IMG/VR virus record: IMGVR_UViG_3300025687_005968
Span: 1 to 20,857 of that record
Origin: a virus
Reading direction: 5' to 3' (one strand)
DNA length: 20,857 nt
The notes beneath the pieces were generated by a model, which saw nothing but the letters and a program-made list of their open reading frames with translations, did no database searches and was not told where the DNA came from. The position numbers and the translations under genes are program-made. Each line of letters opens with the position of its first letter. The first letter of the stretch is position 1. Shown here piece after piece: positions 5,379-18,923 of the stretch.

Positions 5379-5566
5379 ATTAATAATGATGATTTTATTA
5401 AAATAATTACAAAATGATTATGATTGTAATAGGCTATCATTTCATTTCTTAACTGTAAGTAGTTAATAGTTAATTATTTAATATATAGATTATAAAAAAA
5501 GAGGGGTATCTCTAAATATTTATTTCTCTCTCTTTTCTCCCTTTTTCTATAAGGGGGGTCTTATTT

Positions 5567-5723
5567 TAGGACAGCCTAAGCTCTTTTTTTCTGTAAGTTA
5601 TTGAATATCAATAAGATTAGAGCTATCCTAATTTAGGACAGCCTATTATAATCTAAGACTTAACTTATTATCTATCAAATACTTACAAATTAAGAAAATT
5701 AGGATAGTTTAGGATAGCCTAAG
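5567..5723. repeat. Cluster of TAGGAYAG motifs (iteron- or operator-like)
   Basis: TAGGACAG at 5567-5574 and 5634-5641; TAGGATAG at 5700-5707 and 5710-5717; one inverted copy (CTATCCTA) at 5623-5630. Three copies extend to a small palindrome, TTAGGACAGCCTAAG (5566-5580), TTAGGACAGCCTA (5633-5645) and TTAGGATAGCCTAAG (5709-5723). A related AGGCTATC lies at 5431-5438. Spacing is irregular between groups. Such clusters are typical of repressor operators or of replication initiator sites. Confidence 0.75.
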
Positions 5724-5810
5724 AATATCTGTAATTCTCAGAATCATATGGTAAAATTTTCCGATGTACAACTGTTCACTAGGAAAAAAATGCCATATCT
5801 GGTTTCGCTC

Positions 5811-5918
5811 TCGATATTTTAAGAAAGTTTTTAATCATCTCATTTCTCATTGGCATACTCGATAATTTAAGAAAGTTTTGACTTTTTAACTTTCCTGTCG
5901 ATATTTTAAGAAAGTTTT
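5811..5918 (+). repeat. Three direct copies of a 21-bp repeat upstream of the small terminase gene
   Basis: TCGATATTTTAAGAAAGTTT plus a T occurs at 5811-5831 and 5898-5918, with one change (TCGATAATTT...) at 5859-5879. Start-to-start distances are 48 and 39 bp. The last copy ends 25 bp before the ATG at 5944. These could be sites for the small terminase itself (pac/cos binding), for a phage transcription factor, or parts of repeated promoters, since the third copy carries a -10-like TATTTT. Confidence 0.8.
5878..5907 (+). promoter_or_regulatory. Candidate rightward promoter
   Basis: TTGACT (5878-5883), 18 nt, TATTTT (5902-5907). The -10 box is inside the third 21-bp repeat, so a protein bound to the repeat would block or modulate it. 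Start of transcription would fall near 5914, about 30 nt before the ATG at 5944. Confidence 0.45.
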
Positions 5919-5943
5919 CAATTGCGTTAGAGAATTTAAAAAT

Positions 5944-6489
5944 ATGAACAGTGAACAAGAAACCTTTAGATCTATTACAACATTAACAAGATCACAGAAA
6001 CTTAAAATCCGTAAACTTTATTTGGCTGATCTTCTCCCTCCTAAGGAAATCGCAAGCAAGTATAATATAAGGGAAGGGAATTTCCGTGTATGGATACATA
6101 ATCAAGGATGGACTAAAGAACGGCAAAAGATAGAAGCATTAGACAACCTCAATCAATTAACAGAGACTAAACAAACAACAGAATATAAGACGCAGCGTCA
6201 GCTGGACTTCTACTCTAACCTCCAGGAAAAGACTGAGGAGCTAACGGAAAAGGCTCTGGCAAACGCTGCCGAAGCCGAAGGCATAGGCGAACTAAATACG
6301 GCCTTAGGAAGCGTTAAAAGTGCTGTAAGTCTATTTGAGGAGGCTTCTGCTAAGCTCGGGGAAAGCCTACAGACTGCTGGCAGCGTTGCGGAGTCTGGTA
6401 ATCAATACAATTTTTTCTATTTAGATGCGGATAAAGGCCGGGAAATACTGGCGAAATGTAAAGACCAGGGGAAAGTTATTGATATATAG
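5944..6489 (+). CDS. terS: Putative terminase small subunit (HTH DNA-binding)
   Basis: The 181-aa protein has an N-terminal helix-turn-helix of the small-terminase type: KLRKLYL-like helix (KIRKLYLADLLPPKEIASKY) then NIREGNFRVWIHNQGWTKER, where the Trp residues and the KEIA turn are typical. The middle is a long charged coiled helix (about residues 75-150), as used for ring assembly, and a short C-terminal tail may touch the large subunit. It is the first gene rightward of the repeat-rich region. The large subunit gene follows only after 4.5 kb. No strong SD precedes the ATG. A general HTH regulator is the alternative; position before the packaging genes favours TerS. Confidence 0.65.
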   Translation: MNSEQETFRSITTLTRSQKLKIRKLYLADLLPPKEIASKYNIREGNFRVWIHNQGWTKERQKIEALDNLNQLTETKQTTEYKTQRQLDFYSNLQEKTEELTEKALANAAEAEGIGELNTALGSVKSAVSLFEEASAKLGESLQTAGSVAESGNQYNFFYLDADKGREILAKCKDQGKVIDI

Positions 6490-6715: not shown

Positions 6716-6744
6716 TTGACTCATAGATGATACTGCTCAATATT
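6716..6744 (+). promoter_or_regulatory. Weak candidate promoter before the Mom-like gene
   Basis: TTGACT (6716-6721), 17 nt, AATATT (6739-6744). The distance to the ATG at 6755 leaves almost no leader, and the GAGG lies right at the start point, so this is doubtful. Confidence 0.25.
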
Positions 6745-6754
6745 GAGGCTAACA

Positions 6755-7375
6755 ATGAAAGAGGAAAGAATTAAGTCATCTGATTACGCTGTAAAGGCGA
6801 TAAGCAAGTTGGAGTGTATGCCATACTTAATAGATATACATTATGCTGGCAGATGTCCTAGTATATCTTATGCTTTTGGGTTGTTTAAGTCTAATGATCT
6901 TGTAGGTGTTATTACTTATGGCACACCACCATCATCTACTTTGAGGGTTGGTATAGCAGGGAAGGATAACGCTCATTCTGTTTTAGAGCTAAATAGATTA
7001 TGTTTGAAGTATAACCTAAAGAATGAGGCTAGTTTATTAGTTGGAAGGAGTATAAGGTTGCTTCCAAAGAACAAGATAATAATTAGTTTTGCTGATACTG
7101 AGCAAGGGCACGAGGGTATAGTCTATAAGGCTTGTAATTTCAGTTACCATGGTTTAAGTGCTAAGAGAACTGATTGGGCAGTAAAAGGGAAAGAGCATCT
7201 TCATGGGCAAACTATAGCAGATGAGTTTAGAGGGGTTAAGAACAGGGCTAAGGCTATGAGGGATAAGTATGGTGATGATTTTTATTTAAAGCCTAGATCG
7301 AGGAAGCACAGATATATATATTTGCATGGGGATAAGAAATGGAAGAGGGAAGTGATTAAGGATATAAAATACTAG
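6755..7375 (+). CDS. Mom-like DNA-modification protein (GNAT-fold, adenine acylation family)
   Basis: I place the start at ATG 6755, which has GAGG 7 nt upstream; a TTG at 6743 is also in frame. The 206-aa product shows the pattern I know from the phage Mu Mom family and its relatives: a His-Tyr pair near the N-terminus (DIHYAGRCPS, H29-Y30), SYAFGLFKSNDLVGVITYGT (38-57), the ELNRL core (78-82), and a C-terminal block IISFADTEQGHEGIVYKACN (109-128) followed by SYHGLSAKRTDW and HLHGQT. Mom changes adenine to a carbamoylmethyl form and protects phage DNA from restriction. Family assignment is by pattern; the exact chemistry in this phage is unknown. It lies alone after a 265-nt gap, as first gene of the accessory block, with no partner regulator like Mu Com recognised beside it. 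Confidence 0.75.
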   Translation: MKEERIKSSDYAVKAISKLECMPYLIDIHYAGRCPSISYAFGLFKSNDLVGVITYGTPPSSTLRVGIAGKDNAHSVLELNRLCLKYNLKNEASLLVGRSIRLLPKNKIIISFADTEQGHEGIVYKACNFSYHGLSAKRTDWAVKGKEHLHGQTIADEFRGVKNRAKAMRDKYGDDFYLKPRSRKHRYIYLHGDKKWKREVIKDIKY

Positions 7376-7379
7376 CAAG

Positions 7380-7514
7380 ATGAAAGTATACATAGTAGAG
7401 AGGGTTGATATGGGTGTGGAGAAGGTATTTAGGAGATATGATAAGGCATTGGCATATAAGAGTAAGGATGCGAGTGGTTGGGAGTTATTGATAATTGAGA
7501 AGGAGGTAGAGTGA
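7380..7514 (+). CDS. Small hypothetical protein, 44 aa
   Basis: ATG at 7380 lies 4 nt after the stop of the Mom-like gene, and 44 codons follow to TGA at 7512-7514, which overlaps the next GTG start. The product MKVYIVERVDMGVEKVFRRY looks like a small strand-turn-helix protein ending in SGWELLIIEKEVE. Compact phage proteins that begin KVYIVERV are common and uncharacterised. The end of the gene carries the SD of the next one. Confidence 0.6.
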   Translation: MKVYIVERVDMGVEKVFRRYDKALAYKSKDASGWELLIIEKEVE

Positions 7515-7672
7515 CTACGAGTGATTTAGTGAAGAGGATAGAGGAGTTGAGTAGGGAGAATGGTGAGTTGGCAAGTGAGAACGATCATTTGAGGGCATCT
7601 TTAAGGGTGTTGACTGAGCAGGTGATGGGAGAGCAGGTGAAGGGTTATTTTATAAACAACGACGAGGATTGA
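7511..7672 (+). CDS. Small coiled-coil protein, 53 aa, GTG start
   Basis: GTG at 7511 has a very strong SD (AAGGAGG, 5 nt spacing), overlaps the stop of the upstream gene (GTGA), and its TGA is 1 nt before the next ATG. The product is a heptad-patterned helix (DLVKRIEELSRENGELASEN, DHLRASLRVLTEQV), likely a dimeric leucine-zipper-like coil. Only 13 of 162 bases are C, matching the composition of its neighbours. Confidence 0.65.
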   Translation: MTTSDLVKRIEELSRENGELASENDHLRASLRVLTEQVMGEQVKGYFINNDED

Positions 7673-7673
7673 T

Positions 7674-7862
7674 ATGGCAGGTAAAGGGAAGAAACCAGAG
7701 GGAGGGGTTGATTGGGGTAAGTTCTATGAGCTGAGTCCTTTTTTGAGTCCTTGGGAAAAGAAGTTACAGGAAGAGGTTAATTGTGTAGAGCCTGAGAGTG
7801 AGGATGCTGTTGAATGGGCTAAGAGGAAGTTGGAGGAGCAGAGTGAAGGATATGGCAAGTGA
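7674..7862 (+). CDS. Small hypothetical protein, 62 aa
   Basis: ATG at 7674 has GAGG upstream (spacing 8). The protein begins with a basic, flexible MAGKGKKPEGGVDWGKFYEL and then is acidic and helical (EWAKRKLEEQSEGYGK). No known motif. It overlaps the next gene by 20 nt. Confidence 0.6.
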   Translation: MAGKGKKPEGGVDWGKFYELSPFLSPWEKKLQEEVNCVEPESEDAVEWAKRKLEEQSEGYGK

Positions 7863-8046
7863 ATTAACGGTATGTGATTATTTAAATATGAAAGGTTGTA
7901 AGCATCATAAGAGGGATTATTATACAAGGACTGAGCATGATTGGAAGTGTAGGGATTGTTGTGCGACAGGATGGCATTTTTTAGATGACAATATTGATAA
8001 GTTGATTGCATTTGCATCTAATGAAAGGGAGCAGAGTGAAGGATGA
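7843..8046 (+). CDS. Small Cys/His-rich (zinc-type) protein, 67 aa
   Basis: I favour a GTG start at 7843: it has GGAGG 6 nt upstream, and an almost identical segment (GAGCAGAGTGAAGGAT) precedes the next gene. An ATG at 7852 is the alternative. The protein has Cys11, Cys19, His21-22, Cys36, Cys39 (CRDC), Cys40 and His45 in GCKHHKRDY and WKCRDCCATGWHF, so one zinc site is likely. Possible roles are protein or nucleic-acid binding; no family recognised. Confidence 0.6.
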   Translation: MKDMASELTVCDYLNMKGCKHHKRDYYTRTEHDWKCRDCCATGWHFLDDNIDKLIAFASNEREQSEG

Positions 8047-8581
8047 GTTTAGGAGTAATGAAGAACTGTATTTTAGCTGGTGGTTAGACGAGTTAAAAGA
8101 GGCTGGGTATATAAATTATTGGGAATATGAACCTGAGAGTTTCACTTTGATTGATTCTGTAAGGTATAGTTGGTGGAAGCAGTTGAAAACAAAAGAAAAG
8201 CACATGGAATCTACTTTATTGAATGACTTATGTTATACTCCTGACTTTTTTATAAGTTGGAGAGGTTCTGCTTTGGTTACTGGACTGATATGGGATGATG
8301 ACGAAAGCAAGAAGAAGGGTGCGTATGAGTTTGCTACTACTGGATTAGATTCTTGGGTAGACGTAAAGGGAAGTTTTGATAGGAACAAGAGTAATTCTAC
8401 CTTTAGTATTATTCAGAAGGTTATGTATGATAAGACTGGCATATATGTTGAGAAGGTAGTACCAGAGAAGTTGTTTGCGGCTACGTTTACGCCAAAGAGG
8501 TATTTATTGACAGATAAGAGTGGTAAGAGTAGGAAGATAAAATGGGAAGTGAGGATGTTAGATGAAATTTCATTTAAGTGA
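8036..8581 (+). CDS. PD-(D/E)XK family nuclease-like protein
   Basis: With the GTG at 8036 (GGGAG 4 nt upstream) the product is 181 aa; ATGs at 8006 and 8021 are alternatives. The order of motifs fits a restriction-endonuclease-like fold: early acidic residues (SNEELYFSWWLDELKEAGYI), then YTPDFFISW (Pro69-Asp70), then WVDVKGSFD with Asp109-x-Lys111, then an SIIQKVMY helix and GIYVEKVVPEKLF. This layout recurs in uncharacterised phage proteins, where it may act in recombination, repair or degradation of host DNA. Catalytic triad: Asp70, Asp109, Lys111, plus Glu9 or Glu10. It overlaps the next gene by 20 nt. Confidence 0.65.
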   Translation: MKDEFRSNEELYFSWWLDELKEAGYINYWEYEPESFTLIDSVRYSWWKQLKTKEKHMESTLLNDLCYTPDFFISWRGSALVTGLIWDDDESKKKGAYEFATTGLDSWVDVKGSFDRNKSNSTFSIIQKVMYDKTGIYVEKVVPEKLFAATFTPKRYLLTDKSGKSRKIKWEVRMLDEISFK

Positions 8582-8792
8582 TAGGTTTTATGGTGAGTTT
8601 AGTGAATGGTTGGCACATGAGTTGAAGGTTCGTGGGATTAGCCAGATGGATTTGTGTAGGAAGAGTGGTGTGAGTAGGCCACATATACAGAGGATGGTGA
8701 GTGGGAAGAGTGATGGGATGACATTGGTTGTTTTGTGTAAGATAGCGAGTGCATTGGGTTATCGTGTGGACTTTGAGTTTGAGAGAAAATGA
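8562..8792 (+). CDS. Cro/CI-type (XRE) HTH regulator, 76 aa
   Basis: ATG at 8562 has GAGGATGTTAG upstream. Residues about 22-62 form a five-helix XRE domain with the recognition unit ISQMDLCRKSGVSRPHIQRM and the closing LCKIASALGYRVDFEF, which resembles single-domain Cro-like or antitoxin-like regulators. It sits in the middle of the accessory block and not next to the divergent control region, so it might control these genes or be part of the early/late switch. No toxin partner is recognisable beside it. Confidence 0.8.
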   Translation: MKFHLSDRFYGEFSEWLAHELKVRGISQMDLCRKSGVSRPHIQRMVSGKSDGMTLVVLCKIASALGYRVDFEFERK

Positions 8793-8798
8793 GTGGCT

Positions 8799-9098
8799 AT
8801 GAGTGATTTAGAAGCTAAACCATGTGAAGTTTGTGGTGAATATCCTTATAGAAAATTTGGGGCTGCTGGGTATTGGAGTATGTATTCTACATGCTCTCAC
8901 CGTAAGCACATAGAACATAGGAACTCAGAAGAAGAGGTTGTCCATCTATGGAACATAAACAAGCAAGAGTCAGGCTACTACTACTGCGATAAGCATAAGA
9001 GAAAGGTTGAGTATTATCATGACTTTATGGATGAAGGATGGGATTGTGGATGTTATGATGTTAGATATGTTAAGGAGGACGAGGAAAATGAAGTTTAA
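8799..9098 (+). CDS. Lar-like zinc protein (restriction-alleviation candidate)
   Basis: The first half follows the plan of Lar-type restriction-alleviation proteins: MSDLEAKPCEVCGEYPY (Cys9-x2-Cys12 near the N-terminus), a second Cys pair position (Cys32 with His34/His37), then acidic SEEEVVHLWNIN ending in the conserved Trp-Asn. Lar modulates type I restriction-modification. The C-terminal 40 residues add a further Cys/His set (YYCDKHKRK, DCGCYDV), not part of the usual Lar length. I choose ATG 8799 because the protein then starts like Lar; GTG at 8793 is possible. Other zinc-ribbon proteins can look the same, so the function is tentative. Confidence 0.5.
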   Translation: MSDLEAKPCEVCGEYPYRKFGAAGYWSMYSTCSHRKHIEHRNSEEEVVHLWNINKQESGYYYCDKHKRKVEYYHDFMDEGWDCGCYDVRYVKEDEENEV

Positions 9099-9231
9099 TA
9101 TAGGGCAGATGGTGTATTATCAAGGAGAGGTATGGGAGATCTTCTTGTATGTTGGTGGCAAGTATAGTATTTGGAATAGGGAGAGTAGGTTGAGTGTTCA
9201 GGTGAGCGAGGAAGAGATAGATGTGATATGA
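9088..9231 (+). CDS. Small hypothetical beta protein, 47 aa
   Basis: ATG at 9088 follows AAGGAGGACGAGGAAA, a very strong SD, and overlaps the upstream gene by 11 nt; an earlier in-frame start at 9007 lacks such a site. The product MKFNIGQMVYYQGEVWEIFL, then VGGKYSIWNR and LSVQVSEEEIDVI is a small SH3/KOW-like barrel pattern (GQMVYYQGEVWEI). These small barrels often bind nucleic acid or protein. Inference only. Confidence 0.65.
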   Translation: MKFNIGQMVYYQGEVWEIFLYVGGKYSIWNRESRLSVQVSEEEIDVI

Positions 9232-9398
9232 GAGTGTGGTGTGTATTTCAGAGTTATTGTTATGATCCAATGGAGTTGGTTGGTATATATTCTAATGAGG
9301 AGGCAGCGTTATTGGAGGTGGAGAGTATAGAGAGTGAGAGTAGTGATAATGTGTATCGTGCTTTTGTGAGAGTGATGGAAGTGAAGGATAGGTGGTAG
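9228..9398 (+). CDS. Small hypothetical protein, 56 aa
   Basis: ATG at 9228 overlaps the upstream stop (ATGA), and 56 codons end with TAG at 9396-9398. The product starts MRVWCVFQSYCYDPMELVGI and then is acidic (SNEEAALLEVESIESESSDN): strand, helix, strand (VYRAFVRVMEVKDRW), a fold plan common in short phage proteins. Only 8 of 171 bases are C. Confidence 0.65.
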   Translation: MRVWCVFQSYCYDPMELVGIYSNEEAALLEVESIESESSDNVYRAFVRVMEVKDRW

Positions 9399-9401
9399 GA
9401 G

Positions 9402-9584
9402 ATGAAAGAAGCTAGGGAGTGGGTAGAAGAGATGAGCCAGAGTGGAGCATTTGATTTGATAGATGGTATGGATGAAGCTGAGGAGTTTATTAGGAAGGTT
9501 CAGAGGGATGCGTATTCCTCTGCTAAGAATGAATGCCAAATGGGTTATAGATCGAATATAAGAGATAAGGTGATGGATTGGTGA
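9402..9584 (+). CDS. Small hypothetical helical protein, 60 aa
   Basis: ATG at 9402 lies right after TAGGAG, 3 nt past the upstream stop. The product is acidic and helical (MKEAREWVEEMSQSGAFDLI, DEAEEFIRKVQRDAYSSAKN) without Cys pairs or membrane segment. Its stop overlaps the next start (TGATG). No family recognised. Confidence 0.6.
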   Translation: MKEAREWVEEMSQSGAFDLIDGMDEAEEFIRKVQRDAYSSAKNECQMGYRSNIRDKVMDW

Positions 9585-9793
9585 TGATCGAGTTTGAAGT
9601 GAGTAGGAAGGACGAGGCGAGTATGTTTTCGTTTGATTATATTGAGAGGAGTAAGTGGATTATGCAGTATGTAGATAGTTTGCGGTTTGTTGGTGGTAAG
9701 GTTAGGTGCCATGTGATGATGGAACATGATGATGTGTTCAAAGAGGAGATGGCACATAGGGGATTTGAAGTTAGAGAGGTAAGTTATGAGTAG
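9584..9793 (+). CDS. Small hypothetical protein, 69 aa
   Basis: I use ATG 9584, which overlaps the upstream stop as TGATG; TTG at 9578 would add two residues. The product has strands at both ends (MIEFEVSRKDEASMFSFDYI, GFEVREVSYE) and a central VDSLRFVGGKVRCHVMMEHD, a mixed alpha/beta plan. Function unknown; it overlaps the next gene by 8 nt. Confidence 0.6.
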   Translation: MIEFEVSRKDEASMFSFDYIERSKWIMQYVDSLRFVGGKVRCHVMMEHDDVFKEEMAHRGFEVREVSYE

Positions 9794-9998
9794 ATCGTAT
9801 AAGAACAGGAAGAAAACGAGAGAGATAGGTGATTTGACGTATCCCTCTGGAGGTGGTAGGATAAGCAGGAATGCTTATAAGGCTATGTTGAAGAGGCAGA
9901 AGAAGTTGAATCCAGAGTTGGAAGGCTTGGAAGAGGACTATGGTGCTTTTGTTGAGATTGGGAATAAGATAGCGAGAGGTATTCAGAATAATGATTAG
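9786..9998 (+). CDS. Small basic hypothetical protein, 70 aa
   Basis: ATG at 9786 with GAGAGG 6 nt upstream. Strongly basic N-terminal half (MSRSYKNRKKTREIGDLTYP, NAYKAMLKRQKKLN) then an acidic helix (PELEGLEEDYGAFVEIGNKI). Charge suggests nucleic-acid contact through the N-terminus. No family recognised. It overlaps the next gene by 8 nt. Confidence 0.6.
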   Translation: MSRSYKNRKKTREIGDLTYPSGGGRISRNAYKAMLKRQKKLNPELEGLEEDYGAFVEIGNKIARGIQNND

Positions 9999-10302
9999 GA
10001 GACTATTACAAAGTTTTATTGATGCTGAGCTTATTGAGGAAAATATCAATCTGAGGCTTGATATTGAGAATTTAAGGGAAGATTGTGAACATTGGGAAAG
10101 ACAAGCTGATTTATGGAAGGCTAAGTGTAGTAAGCATAATAAACTTTATACTGATATTAAGAAACAATTGGCTATTAAGAATAAGGTGATTGAGGACTAT
10201 AAGAAAAAGACTCAAACTACTCTTAATGATGCGATAAGCCAAACGAATTATCCCAAAGATGGGATGTGCGACGAGCAAGGTAACTATATTGGGGAACAGT
10301 AA
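9991..10302 (+). CDS. Coiled-coil hypothetical protein, 103 aa
   Basis: ATG at 9991 is inside the end of the upstream gene. Heptad-patterned coil over most of its length (ENINLRLDIENLREDCEHWE, LYTDIKKQLAIKNKVIEDYK), with a short non-helical C-terminus. Similar short coil proteins sit near packaging genes in other phages without a known role. Six nt before the methyltransferase ATG. Confidence 0.65.
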   Translation: MIRRLLQSFIDAELIEENINLRLDIENLREDCEHWERQADLWKAKCSKHNKLYTDIKKQLAIKNKVIEDYKKKTQTTLNDAISQTNYPKDGMCDEQGNYIGEQ

Positions 10303-10307
10303 GTTAA

Positions 10308-10976
10308 ATGAAACCATATTACGAAGATAAGTACTGCACTATTTACAATGCAGATTGCAGGGAAGTGTTACCTAGTTTGCCGAAGGTAGATTTGGTCTTA
10401 ACTGATCCTCCGTATTTGCTTAATATGGGGAAAGGAGGTGGAGGCGAACTTGGCTCAAGGAAAGCGAGGGAAAATACTAGAGGATTTACTGACTCAGGAT
10501 TTGATACATCTATTTTAGATTTATTTGATAATTGGTTCTGTTTTTGTCCAAGACTAGGATTGCAAGAGGTAATAAGTAAAGCGGTAAACGGAAAATGGAA
10601 TTTGATTACATGGTGTAAGCCGAATCCAATCCCGACTTTCAATAATACTTATCTTTCAGATGTGGAATATTGCGTTCACAAGTGGTCTAAGGGAAGGCTG
10701 TTTGGTGGATATAAAGATAAGTCTTGTTTTTCTGTATTAGCAAACTCAGAAAAAGAAACTAATCATCCAAATGAAAAGCCACTAAAGCTAATGGCAAAGC
10801 TATTAAACCTTGGAAGTGAAAAAGGTGATACCATCCTAGACCCATTCATGGGAAGCGGAACAACATTAAGAGCTGCCAAAGACTTGAATCGGAAAGCTAT
10901 AGGAATCGAATTAGAAGAGAAGTACTGCGAGATTGCAGCTAAGAGGTTGAGCCAAGAGGTTTTTGATTTTTCATAA
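10308..10976 (+). CDS. Orphan DNA methyltransferase, beta class (probable N6-adenine)
   Basis: The 222-aa protein carries motif IV DPPY (33-36, in DLVLTDPPYLL) before the AdoMet-binding motif I DPFMGSGTT (178-186), with the usual HPNEKPLKLM (153-162) and GIELEEKYCEIAAKRL (199-214) around it: the N4/N6 methyltransferase layout, beta class. DPPY favours adenine-N6 over cytosine-N4. No cognate endonuclease lies beside it, so it is probably a solitary phage enzyme that shields or marks DNA. The TAATG overlap couples it to the large terminase gene, which hints at a link with packaging. No separate target-recognition domain is visible; the 85-150 stretch must serve. Confidence 0.9.
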   Translation: MKPYYEDKYCTIYNADCREVLPSLPKVDLVLTDPPYLLNMGKGGGGELGSRKARENTRGFTDSGFDTSILDLFDNWFCFCPRLGLQEVISKAVNGKWNLITWCKPNPIPTFNNTYLSDVEYCVHKWSKGRLFGGYKDKSCFSVLANSEKETNHPNEKPLKLMAKLLNLGSEKGDTILDPFMGSGTTLRAAKDLNRKAIGIELEEKYCEIAAKRLSQEVFDFS

Positions 10977-12802
10977 TGCCTAAGAACACTGATTTAAAGG
11001 TTAATAAGTCTGGAGATACTTACTCTATTTATGGAAGGACTTTTGATGTTAGGGAGATAAGTCCCTTGCAGTTAGAGTTGTTTGCGTGGAGAGAGAAGTT
11101 GGGTGAGAATGATGGGTTTGTGAATCCTGAGTATCACTTTAGGCAGGCGTTTGCGTTGATGTATCCTAAGTTCAAGATGCACAAGTGGGTGGACATGGAG
11201 ATTGAGGCGTATTGCAATTACAAGGTGATAAATGTGATTGGTCATACGAGAGCGAGTAAGACATTCACCTTTGCTTATATTGTGTATTTGGACTATTGTG
11301 CGAATCCTTTTGAGACAATGATAAGTTTGGCAACTGTGACCTTTTCGGGATTGAGGACTCGTATGTGGAGTGATTTGATGAGTGCGGTTGAGCAGTCTAG
11401 GATTCCATCTACGATGTTTAAGATTACGAGTAGTAGTGCTGATATGAGCATTACGAATGCACCTGAGAAGGGTTTGACTAGGGAGCAGAACTTGGCTAGG
11501 CAGAAGTTTATGATTCAAGGGTTGGCTGTGTCGAAGCAGAAGGATAGTGCTGCTAGAATACAGGGTATGCACGCACCTAGAAGAATTGTGGTATTGGATG
11601 AGGCTCAGGGCTTGCCAGATGCGATATATGATGCTGAGAAGAATGCTCAGTCTGCTCCGTATGGTAAGTTTATTAGATTGGCAAATCCAGAGGATAGGTA
11701 TTCTGTGTTTGGTCGTGAGTGTGAGCCAAAGACAGGTTGGGATACTGTGCATGATACTGATTTAGCATGGCCGACAAAGCAGAAGGACAGTATTTGTCTA
11801 CACTTAGATGGTTTTCAATGCCATAATATGGAGTTGCACTACAAGAAAGAGCGAGGAGAGATTACTAAGGAGGAATATGAGAAGAATTTATTACCATTTC
11901 AGCCTACAGCAGAGTATTTCTTAGGGTTAGATCCAGATTCGATAACGTATTGGAAGTTTGGCAAGGGATATTTTCCACCTGATGGGCTGATTACTAAGGT
12001 ATTTAATGATATGTTTTTGGCTTCTGCTGCTCATGATAATGAGAGTTTTGTGTATGGTGGGACAACTATTGCGTGTTTAGACCCTGCGTTTGAGCATGAT
12101 GATTGTGTGCTTCAGATATTTGAGTATGGAAAGAAGCGTAATGGACAATGGCACGTGAATTGTTTGAGTAGTCATAAGATTGTGCCTAAAATTGGTGGGT
12201 TTGGTGGTTCTAAGCCGAAGGATTATCAGATTGCTAAGCAGGTTACTGATATATGTAAGGCAAATGGGATAAGACCAGAGAATTTCATAATGGATAAGTC
12301 TGGAAATGGTAGAGGTGTGTATGCCATTATGCAAGTTGAGTGGGATGGTTCTATTGAGGGATGTGAATTTGGTGGTAAGGCTACTAAGAGGCTACTGAGA
12401 GAGGGTGACGATCAGCCTTGTAATGAGAAGTATGCTTATTTTGTTGATGAGTTGTGGTTTCGAGCAGCAGAATGGATGAGATATGGCGATGTTACAGGGT
12501 TGAACAACATGGATAATGAGACAAAGGACGATTTGAGTAGTCGTTTGTATAATCAGAAGTCTAAGGATAATGACCTATTAAGGGTAGAGAGTAAGAAGGA
12601 CATGAAGTCTCGTATTGGGAAATCACCTGACTTTGGTGATGCTTTTTGTTTATTTGCTGAGTTACTGGCACGTAAGGGGATAATACCTGGGTTAAAGAAC
12701 ACCGATGGAGAGAGAATAAAGTCGAGTAATAAGTCTGCACTTGAGAGAGCAAGAAAAGTGAACGCTATATATGAAGATAGTTTCTCAAGTGCAGCTTTTT
12801 AA
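10976..12802 (+). CDS. terL: Terminase large subunit (ATPase and nuclease)
   Basis: The 608-aa protein has the two TerL domains. ATPase: an unusual Walker A, VIGHTRASKTFTF (Gly89 to Thr96), Walker B RRIVVLDEAQ (Asp208-Glu209) and a following FIRLANPED coupling motif. Nuclease: RNase-H-like strands with Asp368 in IACLDPAFEHDD, Asp439 in NFIMDKSGNG and Asp551/Asp554 in KSPDFGDAF. It cuts and pumps DNA into the prohead with the portal and the small subunit. TAATG coupling to the methyltransferase supports the start. Length fits the larger TerL groups. The Walker A lacks the common GKS/GKT and reads ASKT instead, which occurs in some TerL lineages. Confidence 0.92.
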   Translation: MPKNTDLKVNKSGDTYSIYGRTFDVREISPLQLELFAWREKLGENDGFVNPEYHFRQAFALMYPKFKMHKWVDMEIEAYCNYKVINVIGHTRASKTFTFAYIVYLDYCANPFETMISLATVTFSGLRTRMWSDLMSAVEQSRIPSTMFKITSSSADMSITNAPEKGLTREQNLARQKFMIQGLAVSKQKDSAARIQGMHAPRRIVVLDEAQGLPDAIYDAEKNAQSAPYGKFIRLANPEDRYSVFGRECEPKTGWDTVHDTDLAWPTKQKDSICLHLDGFQCHNMELHYKKERGEITKEEYEKNLLPFQPTAEYFLGLDPDSITYWKFGKGYFPPDGLITKVFNDMFLASAAHDNESFVYGGTTIACLDPAFEHDDCVLQIFEYGKKRNGQWHVNCLSSHKIVPKIGGFGGSKPKDYQIAKQVTDICKANGIRPENFIMDKSGNGRGVYAIMQVEWDGSIEGCEFGGKATKRLLREGDDQPCNEKYAYFVDELWFRAAEWMRYGDVTGLNNMDNETKDDLSSRLYNQKSKDNDLLRVESKKDMKSRIGKSPDFGDAFCLFAELLARKGIIPGLKNTDGERIKSSNKSALERARKVNAIYEDSFSSAAF

Positions 12803-12846: not shown

Positions 12847-13587
12847 ATGATAAAGATAAAGAAAAGAAATTTAGTTCCTCCTGGGGGTTGGAAGTTTAAA
12901 GACCCTGATTCTGGTTTCTGGCTTGAGGGCAGAAGTATCGAGCAACTGGTTTCTAATGTTATCTTGAGTCGTAAAAAGAATGGATATACTGGCTCTTTTG
13001 ATATTGAAGAGACTGAGCAAGAGGTATTAAAGCAGATTTGTTCTATTATTGGTGAGCCTCATTGTAAAGCAGATGAGGAAATTGTCATGTATGAGGACAA
13101 AACAGGAATTTTCAAGTTAGATAAGATCACTTCTATTGCTAGTGCAGCTTTGGAGATGGCTAAGGGTGAATCGTTGGTAGATGCTAAAGAGTTGGCACGT
13201 AGACAAGCGATATGTAATAAGTGCTTTCTTAATAGACCTGCTAGGGGATGTGCTTGTGCAACGGTTTACAAAATGATAAATGCTGCAATTCCAGACAATC
13301 GTAGGGATGAGAATCTTGAGATGTGTGGTGCTTGTGGTTGTATGATAAATGCTAAAATACAATTACCTATGTCTGCGGTTAATGCAGCGAATAAAGGATC
13401 TAATAATAAATACCCTTCTTATTGTTGGCAATTGGATGAACAATCAGAATTGGATGAATCCAAGGAGATTGAGACTCCTACAGAAGTTAAGGAAGTTGTG
13501 GAGTCAATTGAAGAAGAAACCCCTAAACCAGTTGTTAAGAAAAAAGTTAAGGCTAAGAAAAAAGTAGCTAAGAAAAAGGCTGAATAA
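12847..13587 (+). CDS. Cys-rich (zinc-cluster) protein with lysine-rich tail, 246 aa
   Basis: N-terminus KRNLVPPGGWKFKDPDSGFW is a PPGGW-type domain I recall from uncharacterised phage proteins near portal genes. Residues 123-165 hold CNKC, CAC and CGACGC (Cys123, 126, 135, 137, 160, 163, 165), with Cys65, Cys73 and Cys193 outside: at least one zinc site. The last 20 residues (PKPVVKKKVKAKKKVAKKKA) are histone-H1-like repeats, after an acidic linker. It lies between terL and portal with TAATG coupling to portal, so it is probably a head-assembly or DNA-associated protein. No SD is visible at the ATG, and no upstream alternative exists. Confidence 0.75.
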   Translation: MIKIKKRNLVPPGGWKFKDPDSGFWLEGRSIEQLVSNVILSRKKNGYTGSFDIEETEQEVLKQICSIIGEPHCKADEEIVMYEDKTGIFKLDKITSIASAALEMAKGESLVDAKELARRQAICNKCFLNRPARGCACATVYKMINAAIPDNRRDENLEMCGACGCMINAKIQLPMSAVNAANKGSNNKYPSYCWQLDEQSELDESKEIETPTEVKEVVESIEEETPKPVVKKKVKAKKKVAKKKAE

Positions 13588-15653
13588 TGGATGGAACTAG
13601 CGATTATACAGATGATAATGGAATCATTAAAATTAAGGATGTTGGAGTCGCTAGGACTTTATTTAGACGATATTGGGAAGAGGGAGAGTTAAGAAGAAGA
13701 AACTATACCAAGGTAAGAAACCAATTAGAGGGTGGTTTACCTTATAGTCCTGAGACTCTTAGAAATCGTGGTGAAGCATGGCGAACTAATGTCAATTTTA
13801 GAGATGCTGAGGAGTCTAAGAATAGAGTAATTAAGCCATATTGGGACATGGTAAATAATGTTCCTAGTAAGATTGCGATTACAATTCATAGTCAGTCACC
13901 TAGGTCTGGTATTTGGCAACGTGCTATGGAACAAGCATTTGATATGTTCTATGACGACTGGGGATTGGACTATCAGATTCAATTTAGACTTTGGGTAGAG
14001 GAATATATCAAATTTGGATATGGACTTCCTATGTTTCCTGATAAGAATTGCCCAAAGTATAAGGCTTTGACTGCTGATAAGGTTCATGCTCCTAAGAGAG
14101 CTAGCTTAACTCCAGACAGTTGGGACATCATCATGATTCGTGATGAGTGGTCGATTTCTGATCTTTATAAGAAGTTGAGAAAAAACAAGAACGGTGAGAG
14201 TGAATACTTAGGGTATAACACCAAGGAAATTCAGAGAGTCATTGAACACGCTGTAAAAGGTCATGGAAACAACATTCAATCTGATGATTGGGTGAAGATC
14301 CAAGACGAGATGAAGAATAATGACCTTGGATATTCTGAGCTACAAACTACAGTAGACATTATTCACTTACTTTATCGTGAAGAGAGTGGGAAAGTCAGTC
14401 ATTGTATCTTTGAGGAAAAGGGACAAGCTGATGGTGGTGGGAATCCCATTTATCACAAGGATAAGGATGGGTTTATTTTCCATTCTGAGGAATGCTTTGA
14501 TAGCTTTGAGGAATACTTGGCACCTTTGTATTACGAGGTAGGAAATGGTCAGTTTCATGGAGTAAAGGGATTCGGGATAAAGAACTATCATTTTTCTGTG
14601 CTTCTGAATCGCTTGAAGTCTAATATTGTAGACTCTACTTCAATTACAATGGGATTGAACTTTGTAAGAACTGATAATGCAAACTCAGAGAATCCTCCTG
14701 TAGAAGCCTATGGGCCAGTTAATATTTTCCCTAGAGGGCTAGAGCAAATCAATCATTATCCTAGTGGTAATAATGGATTTAATGCTCTTGAGATGCTTCA
14801 AAACAATCAAGCTGAGAATAATTCACAATATCGTGAGCAGAGGTCACAGATAGCGAATACAAGCACAGCAAAGCAAGCTGAGATATTGGCAAGTATCAAT
14901 CAAGAAATGAGCCAAGCAGATGCTTCTCTTTTCCTTTCTCAGTTGTCTGAGTGTGTTTACGAGAATCAATTAAAAAGACTCCGTAAAAAGGGTAATATTA
15001 ATCCTGCTGCTAAGAAGTTTGTTGAGCGTTGTAAGGAAATGGGAGTTCCAGATGAAATTATTTATAATTCTGAGATTACCGTTAAGTCTGGTGCTAATGC
15101 TAATATGGCAAGCTCATTAGCTCGTAAAGCTATATGGGAACAATTAATGGCTACAGGTCGTCAAATGGGCTTCAATTTCAGATGGATACAAGAGAACTTC
15201 ATAGCTAATACATTTGGGGCACAAGCGGTCAATAAGGCGCTTCCTGTAGATGGAATGAATACTGACAATAACCAAACTCGATTGGCTACTATTGAGAATA
15301 CTCAGATGGCAGATGGTGTGCCGATGCCTGTAGATGGAATGGATATGCACGATAAACACGCAAATGTTCACGTGGGTATGTTCCAGAATATGATGAAGAA
15401 ACTTGAGTCAACTGGAGAGTTATCTCAAGAAGATATGGTATTTATGGATCTTTGTCTTAATCACCTTGATGAACACTTTAGATTCATGGAGATGGATGAG
15501 ACTTTAGAGGCTATAGCTAAAGAGATGCGTGGAAATATGAACAATCTAGTCGCTGCTTATGCTGGGTATAAAAGGCAGGTAGAGCGACAGATGCAAGAGG
15601 AACAACTAGAACCAAATATAAATGCAGAACAAAATCCTAACATACCGACCTAA
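13587..15653 (+). CDS. Portal protein
   Basis: The 688-aa protein follows terL in the expected order and precedes scaffold and capsid. Sequence marks: an N-terminal wing domain with many aromatic residues (ARTLFRRYWEEGELRRRNYT, YQIQFRLWVEEYIKFGYG), a stem-type segment NNQAENNSQYREQRSQIA near residue 410 followed by the helix KQAEILASINQEMSQADASL, and a C-terminal His/Asp-rich stretch HDKHANVHVGMFQNMMKKL (about 585-605) as in portals of podovirus-like phages. It forms the dodecameric DNA channel at one vertex. TAATG coupling fixes the start. The assignment rests on order, size and these patterns and not on a single diagnostic motif. Confidence 0.8.
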   Translation: MDGTSDYTDDNGIIKIKDVGVARTLFRRYWEEGELRRRNYTKVRNQLEGGLPYSPETLRNRGEAWRTNVNFRDAEESKNRVIKPYWDMVNNVPSKIAITIHSQSPRSGIWQRAMEQAFDMFYDDWGLDYQIQFRLWVEEYIKFGYGLPMFPDKNCPKYKALTADKVHAPKRASLTPDSWDIIMIRDEWSISDLYKKLRKNKNGESEYLGYNTKEIQRVIEHAVKGHGNNIQSDDWVKIQDEMKNNDLGYSELQTTVDIIHLLYREESGKVSHCIFEEKGQADGGGNPIYHKDKDGFIFHSEECFDSFEEYLAPLYYEVGNGQFHGVKGFGIKNYHFSVLLNRLKSNIVDSTSITMGLNFVRTDNANSENPPVEAYGPVNIFPRGLEQINHYPSGNNGFNALEMLQNNQAENNSQYREQRSQIANTSTAKQAEILASINQEMSQADASLFLSQLSECVYENQLKRLRKKGNINPAAKKFVERCKEMGVPDEIIYNSEITVKSGANANMASSLARKAIWEQLMATGRQMGFNFRWIQENFIANTFGAQAVNKALPVDGMNTDNNQTRLATIENTQMADGVPMPVDGMDMHDKHANVHVGMFQNMMKKLESTGELSQEDMVFMDLCLNHLDEHFRFMEMDETLEAIAKEMRGNMNNLVAAYAGYKRQVERQMQEEQLEPNINAEQNPNIPT

Positions 15654-17492: not shown

Positions 17493-18923
17493 ATGCCTGC
17501 ACCTGATTTAACGAATATGACTAATTTATTCGTGGCTTTGAGAGATCAATTCCATGAAAAAATCTTTACACACTATTGGCAAACAGACCCTTATGTCTCT
17601 TTGATTCCCAAGAAGTTTTATAACCCTAAAGAGGGTATTCTACCTACAGTATTAACGCCAACTTATGAGTTGCCACTAGACTATCCTACAGCGATGGCTA
17701 CATTAGCTCGCTCTACAGGAACTGGTTCTGCTTGTGATGTTGACCCAACTGAAGTTGAGTTCGGACATGACGAAAGAACTTTCGGTCTTAAAGTAGATGC
17801 TTGGAGATCACCAGGAATCTGTTTGACTGACCTTCAGTTCGACCATAACCCACTTGCTTTCATCCGTAATGTTGAAGAAGGTTTGATGCAGTATGCAATC
17901 ACTAAGAATGCTGACTGGAATCGTTACCACGCAACAGGAATGGTTGATAATAAAGCAACTATTAAGGGTGCAAACGATATTACTGAAGATGAGAATACTT
18001 CTTTTGACTTCGATGACATTATCTTAGATCGTCAGAATACAGCGACAGGCGGTAGTGCTACTACTGTAGTATTGGATGCAGGTGCAAGTGCCGTAACAGG
18101 AACATACGTAGGACAAGAAGTTCATATAATCAGCGGTACAGGTGCAGGATCATTTGCAACTATTACTGCTTATAATGGTGGTACTCAAACTGCAACAGTA
18201 GCAGCTTGGTCTACAGCTTCAGGTGCAACAGGAACTGCCCCTGTAAGCGGTGATGTATTCCGTATCTTAACTGCTAATATCCCAACCAATACACTGCAAT
18301 GGTCAAATCTTGAGTATTTCTATAATGAGCTTGCTCGTAGAGGTGCAGACAGATATGCAGTAGGTTATGCTGATGGACAACGTGTTTACGCTTTGACTGT
18401 TGGTGCTGAAACTAAATCTAATCTTTTCCTAAGTGATTCTAACTATCGTGAAGATATTCGTTATGCAATGCCAATGGAAAACTTTAGAGCTAGAGGTATT
18501 GACAGAGCGTTAAATGGTTTCATGCCAAATGTAGACCTCTTCCCAATCCGTTTCAATGCAGCAGGACAAAGATTATATCCTTGGATCTCAGCAGCTTCTT
18601 CTGGAACTGGTAAAAAGTATGCAGCTAACCCTAATTACAAACCTGTATCTAAGGGTGGTAAAGCAATCTATGAGACTGCAAATATCCTTACTACTGAGGT
18701 GTTTGAATGTCAGCCAAGACCAATCGGGCAGATTCAATTCAGCAAAGCTAAATTCCAAGCGATTAACTATACAGCAGAGCTTAACTGGATCAATAATCCT
18801 GACAACGGTGACAATCCTCTTGGTAATAAAGGTTACTTTAGAGCAGATTGGCAGTTGGCAGCTATGCCTAAACGTCCTGAGATGGGTTACACAATCCTTC
18901 ACAAGATAGCATCTGAGGTTTAA
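17493..18923 (+). CDS. Major capsid protein with inserted beta domain
   Basis: The 476-aa product lies after the scaffold gene, has its own promoter, strong SD and terminator, and shows the more C-rich codon choice of a highly made protein. The N-terminal part (MTNLFVALRDQFHEKIFTHY, YVSLIPKKFYNPKEGILPTV) and the C-terminal part (RPIGQIQFSKAKFQAINYTA, then NPLGNKGYFRADWQLAAMPK) look like capsid shell. Residues about 184-261 (ATGGSATTVVLDAGASAV, then GQEVHIISGTGAGSFATITA and TQTATVAAWS) form an all-beta repeat-type module that I have also seen on phage tail and capsid surfaces; here it is an insertion. No cleavage site or crosslink residue is evident. HK97-type fold is expected but not shown. 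Confidence 0.85.
   Translation: MPAPDLTNMTNLFVALRDQFHEKIFTHYWQTDPYVSLIPKKFYNPKEGILPTVLTPTYELPLDYPTAMATLARSTGTGSACDVDPTEVEFGHDERTFGLKVDAWRSPGICLTDLQFDHNPLAFIRNVEEGLMQYAITKNADWNRYHATGMVDNKATIKGANDITEDENTSFDFDDIILDRQNTATGGSATTVVLDAGASAVTGTYVGQEVHIISGTGAGSFATITAYNGGTQTATVAAWSTASGATGTAPVSGDVFRILTANIPTNTLQWSNLEYFYNELARRGADRYAVGYADGQRVYALTVGAETKSNLFLSDSNYREDIRYAMPMENFRARGIDRALNGFMPNVDLFPIRFNAAGQRLYPWISAASSGTGKKYAANPNYKPVSKGGKAIYETANILTTEVFECQPRPIGQIQFSKAKFQAINYTAELNWINNPDNGDNPLGNKGYFRADWQLAAMPKRPEMGYTILHKIASEV

Follow-up and report, generated by a model that had tools for sequence, protein, structure and literature searches.

The window spans all 20,857 bases of an incomplete virus contig and encodes a genuine relative of the Mom protein of phage Mu. 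In Mu, this protein chemically disguises the phage DNA against bacterial restriction enzymes. We put the probability at roughly three in four that the enzyme encoded here would also perform a Mom-type adenine modification, by Mu-like chemistry, and so protect the phage from restriction.

The 206-residue product of the mom gene (Table 1) contains all of the motifs that had been named in a preliminary description of this DNA: the His29-Tyr30 pair, an ELNRL core at residues 78–82 and a FADTEQGHEGIVYKACN block at residues 112–128. When it was searched against Pfam, the Mom family (PF25680) was matched at 126.4 bits (E = 1.5e-36; cut-off 27.1) over nearly the full length of the profile (positions 2–193 of 202), and no family besides Mom was matched. 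The product also matches PHROG 1384, 'Mom-like DNA modification protein' (E = 4.3e-47), more remotely phrog_3339, which represents a Mom-endonuclease fusion type (E = 2.6e-8), and, in a phmmer comparison, the solved chain of Mu Mom (PDB: 8bv8; E = 4e-10). Its identity to Mu Mom itself is 28%. A fold predicted from the single sequence was useless (pLDDT 36), and a model based on an alignment of 51 natural sequences (pLDDT 91) was used instead. The top match of this model in the PDB is again 8bv8 (E = 8.4e-11, TM 0.67/0.63), followed by ordinary GNAT acetyltransferases starting at E = 1.5e-5. The Pfam, PHROG and 8bv8 matches, taken with this fold match, identify the product as a Mom on the GNAT fold. 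The preliminary description was therefore right about the family, since Mom comes first in the sequence, family and fold comparisons alike; placement in an unrelated GNAT group was checked and does not hold, with other GNAT proteins falling five orders of magnitude behind 8bv8.

Across 17 diverse Moms, including that of Mu, 13 alignment columns are invariant (H29, Y30, G51, E78, L79, R81, S93, G121, Y124, A126, N128, G133 and Y187 in the window protein). Within this set, Ser93 aligns with Ser124 of Mu (numbered on the 241-residue Mu ORF). The 8bv8 entry is entitled 'phage Mu protein Mom inactive mutant S124A', and the mutant Ala lies opposite Ser93 in the phmmer alignment. Other, group-specific positions are unlike Mu, with His119 in the window corresponding to Arg154, Lys184 to Gln214 and Asp140 to Phe174. 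Taken together, the invariant residues and Ser93 are good evidence that the window enzyme retains the catalytic chemistry of Mom. The suggestion that the phage might carry modified DNA with a substrate of its own finds no support here, and the residues shared with Mu rather speak against it.

Table 1. Features in and around the mom region of the window.
Feature	Position	Strand	Basis
Candidate terminase small subunit / HTH DNA-binding protein	5944..6489	+	phrog_4151 (DNA binding protein) at 1.4e-7; terminase small subunit families at 4e-4 or worse
Promoter-like TTGACT-17-AATATT, 9/12, probably chance	6716..6744	+	Only promoter-like match in region
Shine-Dalgarno-like GAGG, 6 nt ahead of the mom start codon	6745..6748	+	Sequence
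mom homolog, single Mom/GNAT domain, 206 aa	6755..7375	+	ATG start; Pfam, PHROG, 8bv8, invariant residues
Holliday-junction-resolvase-like / nuclease-like gene	8045..8581	+	phrog_190, 7e-5; homolog in related locus L025
N6/N4 amino DNA methyltransferase, overlaps TerL	10308..10976	+	PF01555, 1e-30
Terminase large subunit (TerL)	10976..12802	+	tblastn, phiV10/epsilon15 TerL, 24–25%, best E ~1e-6; homologs beside mom in L051/L052

The novelty that the preliminary description implied for a Mom outside a Mu-type phage was misplaced. A tblastn survey of 50,697 phage records found mom homologs in 301, mostly not Mu-like, carried by Listeria phage A511 and its relatives, by phages of Staphylococcus, Enterococcus, Proteus, Arthrobacter and Microbacterium, and by Vibrio phage ICP1, cyanophage S-SSM6a and Riggi. 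Annotations and papers have repeatedly placed Mom outside Mu, the papers both in Bacillus phage Riggi, whose authors found neither C nor Com (PMC3853051), and in jumbo phages (PMC7824862). At least 538 stretches in IMG/VR encode Mom relatives, 80 of which, about 50–75% identical to the window protein, were kept for comparison. The window gene is thus a sound addition to a family that is already well known, and no surprise. Its nearest described counterparts are the PHROG 1384 proteins of the A511, Riggi and CRP-902 type, which are 38–42% identical to it (isolate phages aligned), resemble it in length and residues, likewise occur without Com and differ from the window case only in the carrier phage and neighbouring genes; environmental versions reach 75% identity. 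Mu Mom (NP_050657.1) has the same domain, fold and invariant residues, but the window gene differs from it in lacking Com and an upstream GATC and in lying in another gene neighbourhood, besides the low identity given above. Fusions of Mom to an endonuclease are known in jumbo and other phages (PMC7824862) and have the Mom domain in common with the window protein, which is a single domain with no restriction-endonuclease-fold fusion; here a separate nuclease-like gene lies 670 bp downstream. The window's contribution is one Mom, well supported, from a phage that has not been cultured. Non-Mu Moms run to hundreds, annotated by homology only, and the identity of their product would tell whether the Mu chemistry is general.

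The gene travels by itself. We compared 81 related loci (the 80 kept IMG/VR relatives and L002) with flanks of ~6 kb (8 kb for L002), many of the contigs being short, and in 72 of them mom is the sole gene in common with the window; the other nine have a further match, to the methyltransferase, TerL or the nuclease. Compared with 13 of its nearest relatives, the protein is 62–75% identical and the gene 54–66% identical in nucleotides, dN is 0.24–0.39, and synonymous sites are saturated in 12 of the 13 while the protein is conserved. Because most loci share mom only, and because the protein is conserved over saturated synonymous sites, these comparisons show mom to behave as a mobile gene under purifying selection, whose group moves singly between unrelated phages.

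Expression was considered against the com-mom operon of Mu, in which the zinc-ribbon translational activator Com overlaps mom. A profile search for Com (PF10122), which detected Mu as a positive control, found none in the window. The missing Com partner had been remarked on before and is borne out by this search, but it is not distinctive, as Mu alone has Com among 36 mom-bearing records (several of them fragments). The Com-binding motif, CCN2-3GAG (PMC6483171), was not found upstream of the window mom, and there are no Dam (GATC) sites between 6490 and 6790. A small Cys-rich protein at 7855–8046 was rejected as a Com-like candidate; it has no Pfam match and one weak match to a PHROG without known function (E = 0.0042). 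The new promoter region proposed in the preliminary description is also unsupported. Promoter-like matches in the region number 12, not clearly above the 6.7 ± 2.5 found in shuffles, and the single candidate before mom was rejected as a dedicated promoter, being close to chance and having an expected start that would cut off the Shine-Dalgarno-like site. The simplest reading is that transcripts from a promoter further upstream probably read through into mom, which would be translated directly without Com.

We propose that this tailed-phage genome carries a mom homolog that spreads horizontally and that, expressed by such read-through and from a normal ribosome-binding site, would yield a GNAT-fold enzyme that binds an acyl-CoA. 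By analogy with Mu, the enzyme would modify adenines at their N6 amino group once the phage DNA has been replicated and before it is packaged, and the modified virion DNA would be shielded from host restriction endonucleases. The product of Mu Mom has been named ncm6A, N6-carbamoylmethyl-adenine (PMC8281217), and the product here would most likely be this base or a close relative, although a particular modified base is something that we infer from sequence beyond the catalytic chemistry of Mom. Of the donor for Mom, the published description says no more than that it is an acyl-CoA, for example glycyl-CoA (PMC7824862). The function proposed thus takes its substrate, product and protective effect from Mu, and builds on the family, fold, active-site residues, purifying selection, spread and lack of Com described here.

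That loose description of the donor, the low identity to Mu Mom and the group-specific residues would all suit an enzyme of the same class that acts on DNA adenine with a different acyl donor, giving a modified base unlike that of Mu; every family-invariant residue is nevertheless retained, including the Ser that is essential in Mu, and we consider this unlikely. We are similarly doubtful of a wider proposal, in which the widespread non-Mu Moms of PHROG 1384 would make an adenine modification unlike Mu's and constitute a mobile, Com-free and broad anti-restriction device.

It is less probable still that the protein is a GNAT enzyme directed at protein, RNA or a small molecule in place of DNA. 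GNAT folds commonly serve such substrates, and the remoter fold matches are indeed ordinary acetyltransferases, but Mom ranks first in sequence, family and fold, with other GNATs five orders of magnitude behind, and is the only Pfam family matched. We give equally little credence to the idea that the gene was acquired and is now silent or decaying, without a role in the phage: mom does move between phages alone and has no clear promoter of its own, yet its ORF is intact and preceded by a Shine-Dalgarno-like site, none of the family-invariant residues has been lost, and selection on the protein is evident from the synonymous sites. Adenine modification of the Mu type remains the preferred reading.

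Six-base palindromes over the window (1–20,857) occur at 0.50 of expectation (152 against 304 ± 17 in local single-strand dinucleotide-preserving shuffles, which do not hold codon structure fixed), and the mirror-repeat control stands at 0.94; a pooled-strand estimate, which is biased by strand skew, was replaced by these shuffles. The median for mom-bearing loci of at least 7 kb is 0.60. This depletion suggests long exposure of the phage line to type II restriction. It fits a need for Mom and shows as well that modification has left restriction pressure in place, and it neither proves nor refutes Mom activity. GCGC and CGCG are nearly absent, with one occurrence each (21 and 11 expected). More unusual than the mom gene itself is the depletion of cytosine at 7.3–10 kb. 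From 7000 to 10,300 on the plus strand, the coding strand contains 5–9% C and 27–38% G per 300 bases, the GC skew is 0.61 over 2.5 kb and up to 0.69 over 1 kb (across 96 other loci, mom-bearing or related, the 2.5-kb skew reaches 0.31 at most), and C occupies 0–8% of third codon positions in most genes. The depletion starts inside mom and eases at the methyltransferase, and homologous mom genes are without it.

The gene had been placed between terminase genes. TerL downstream is supported, but the small-subunit call is weak and mom lies ~3.6 kb from TerL, across about ten small ORFs, among them the N6/N4 methyltransferase, the resolvase/nuclease-like gene and genes for an HTH protein and a weakly Lar-like protein. 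This location is not peculiar, since mom recurs beside TerL in Riggi and in the related loci L051 and L052. We found no close relative of the phage as a whole, and a TerL scan of IMG/VR gave none. The ORFs in portal and capsid position (13587–15653 and 17493–18923) have no match in the 50,697 phage records and no significant one in Pfam or PHROGs, which points to a poorly sampled lineage. Neither of two candidate gene pairings holds: the methyltransferase accompanies mom in 7 of 36 mom-bearing records, and a glutaredoxin pairing raised by S-SSM6a and TV54 was rejected as a general rule, with a Pfam glutaredoxin in 4 of 38. A glutaredoxin gene does adjoin or closely trail mom in Enterococcus phage TV54, cyanophage S-SSM6a and L020 (L017 2501–3333; L010 1453–2794; L020 5524–6758).

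The Lar-like protein (8793–9098) is small and Cys-rich, and its resemblance to Lar restriction-alleviation proteins is weak (PF14354, E = 0.0094, under the cut-off; TIGR03655, E = 0.037). At 334–930 lies the C-terminal half of a papain-family protein (Peptidase_C1). It has an H and N region resembling an active site and, C-terminally, a hydrophobic segment, and its presence is unusual for a phage early region. Upstream of the candidate small subunit are two sets of three direct repeats each, at 5559–5721 and 5808–5922, of a 20-nt TCTTATTTTAGGACAGCCTA type and a 28-nt CTCTCGATATTTTAAGAAAGTTTTTAAT type, which are possible operators, or a possible origin or packaging site.
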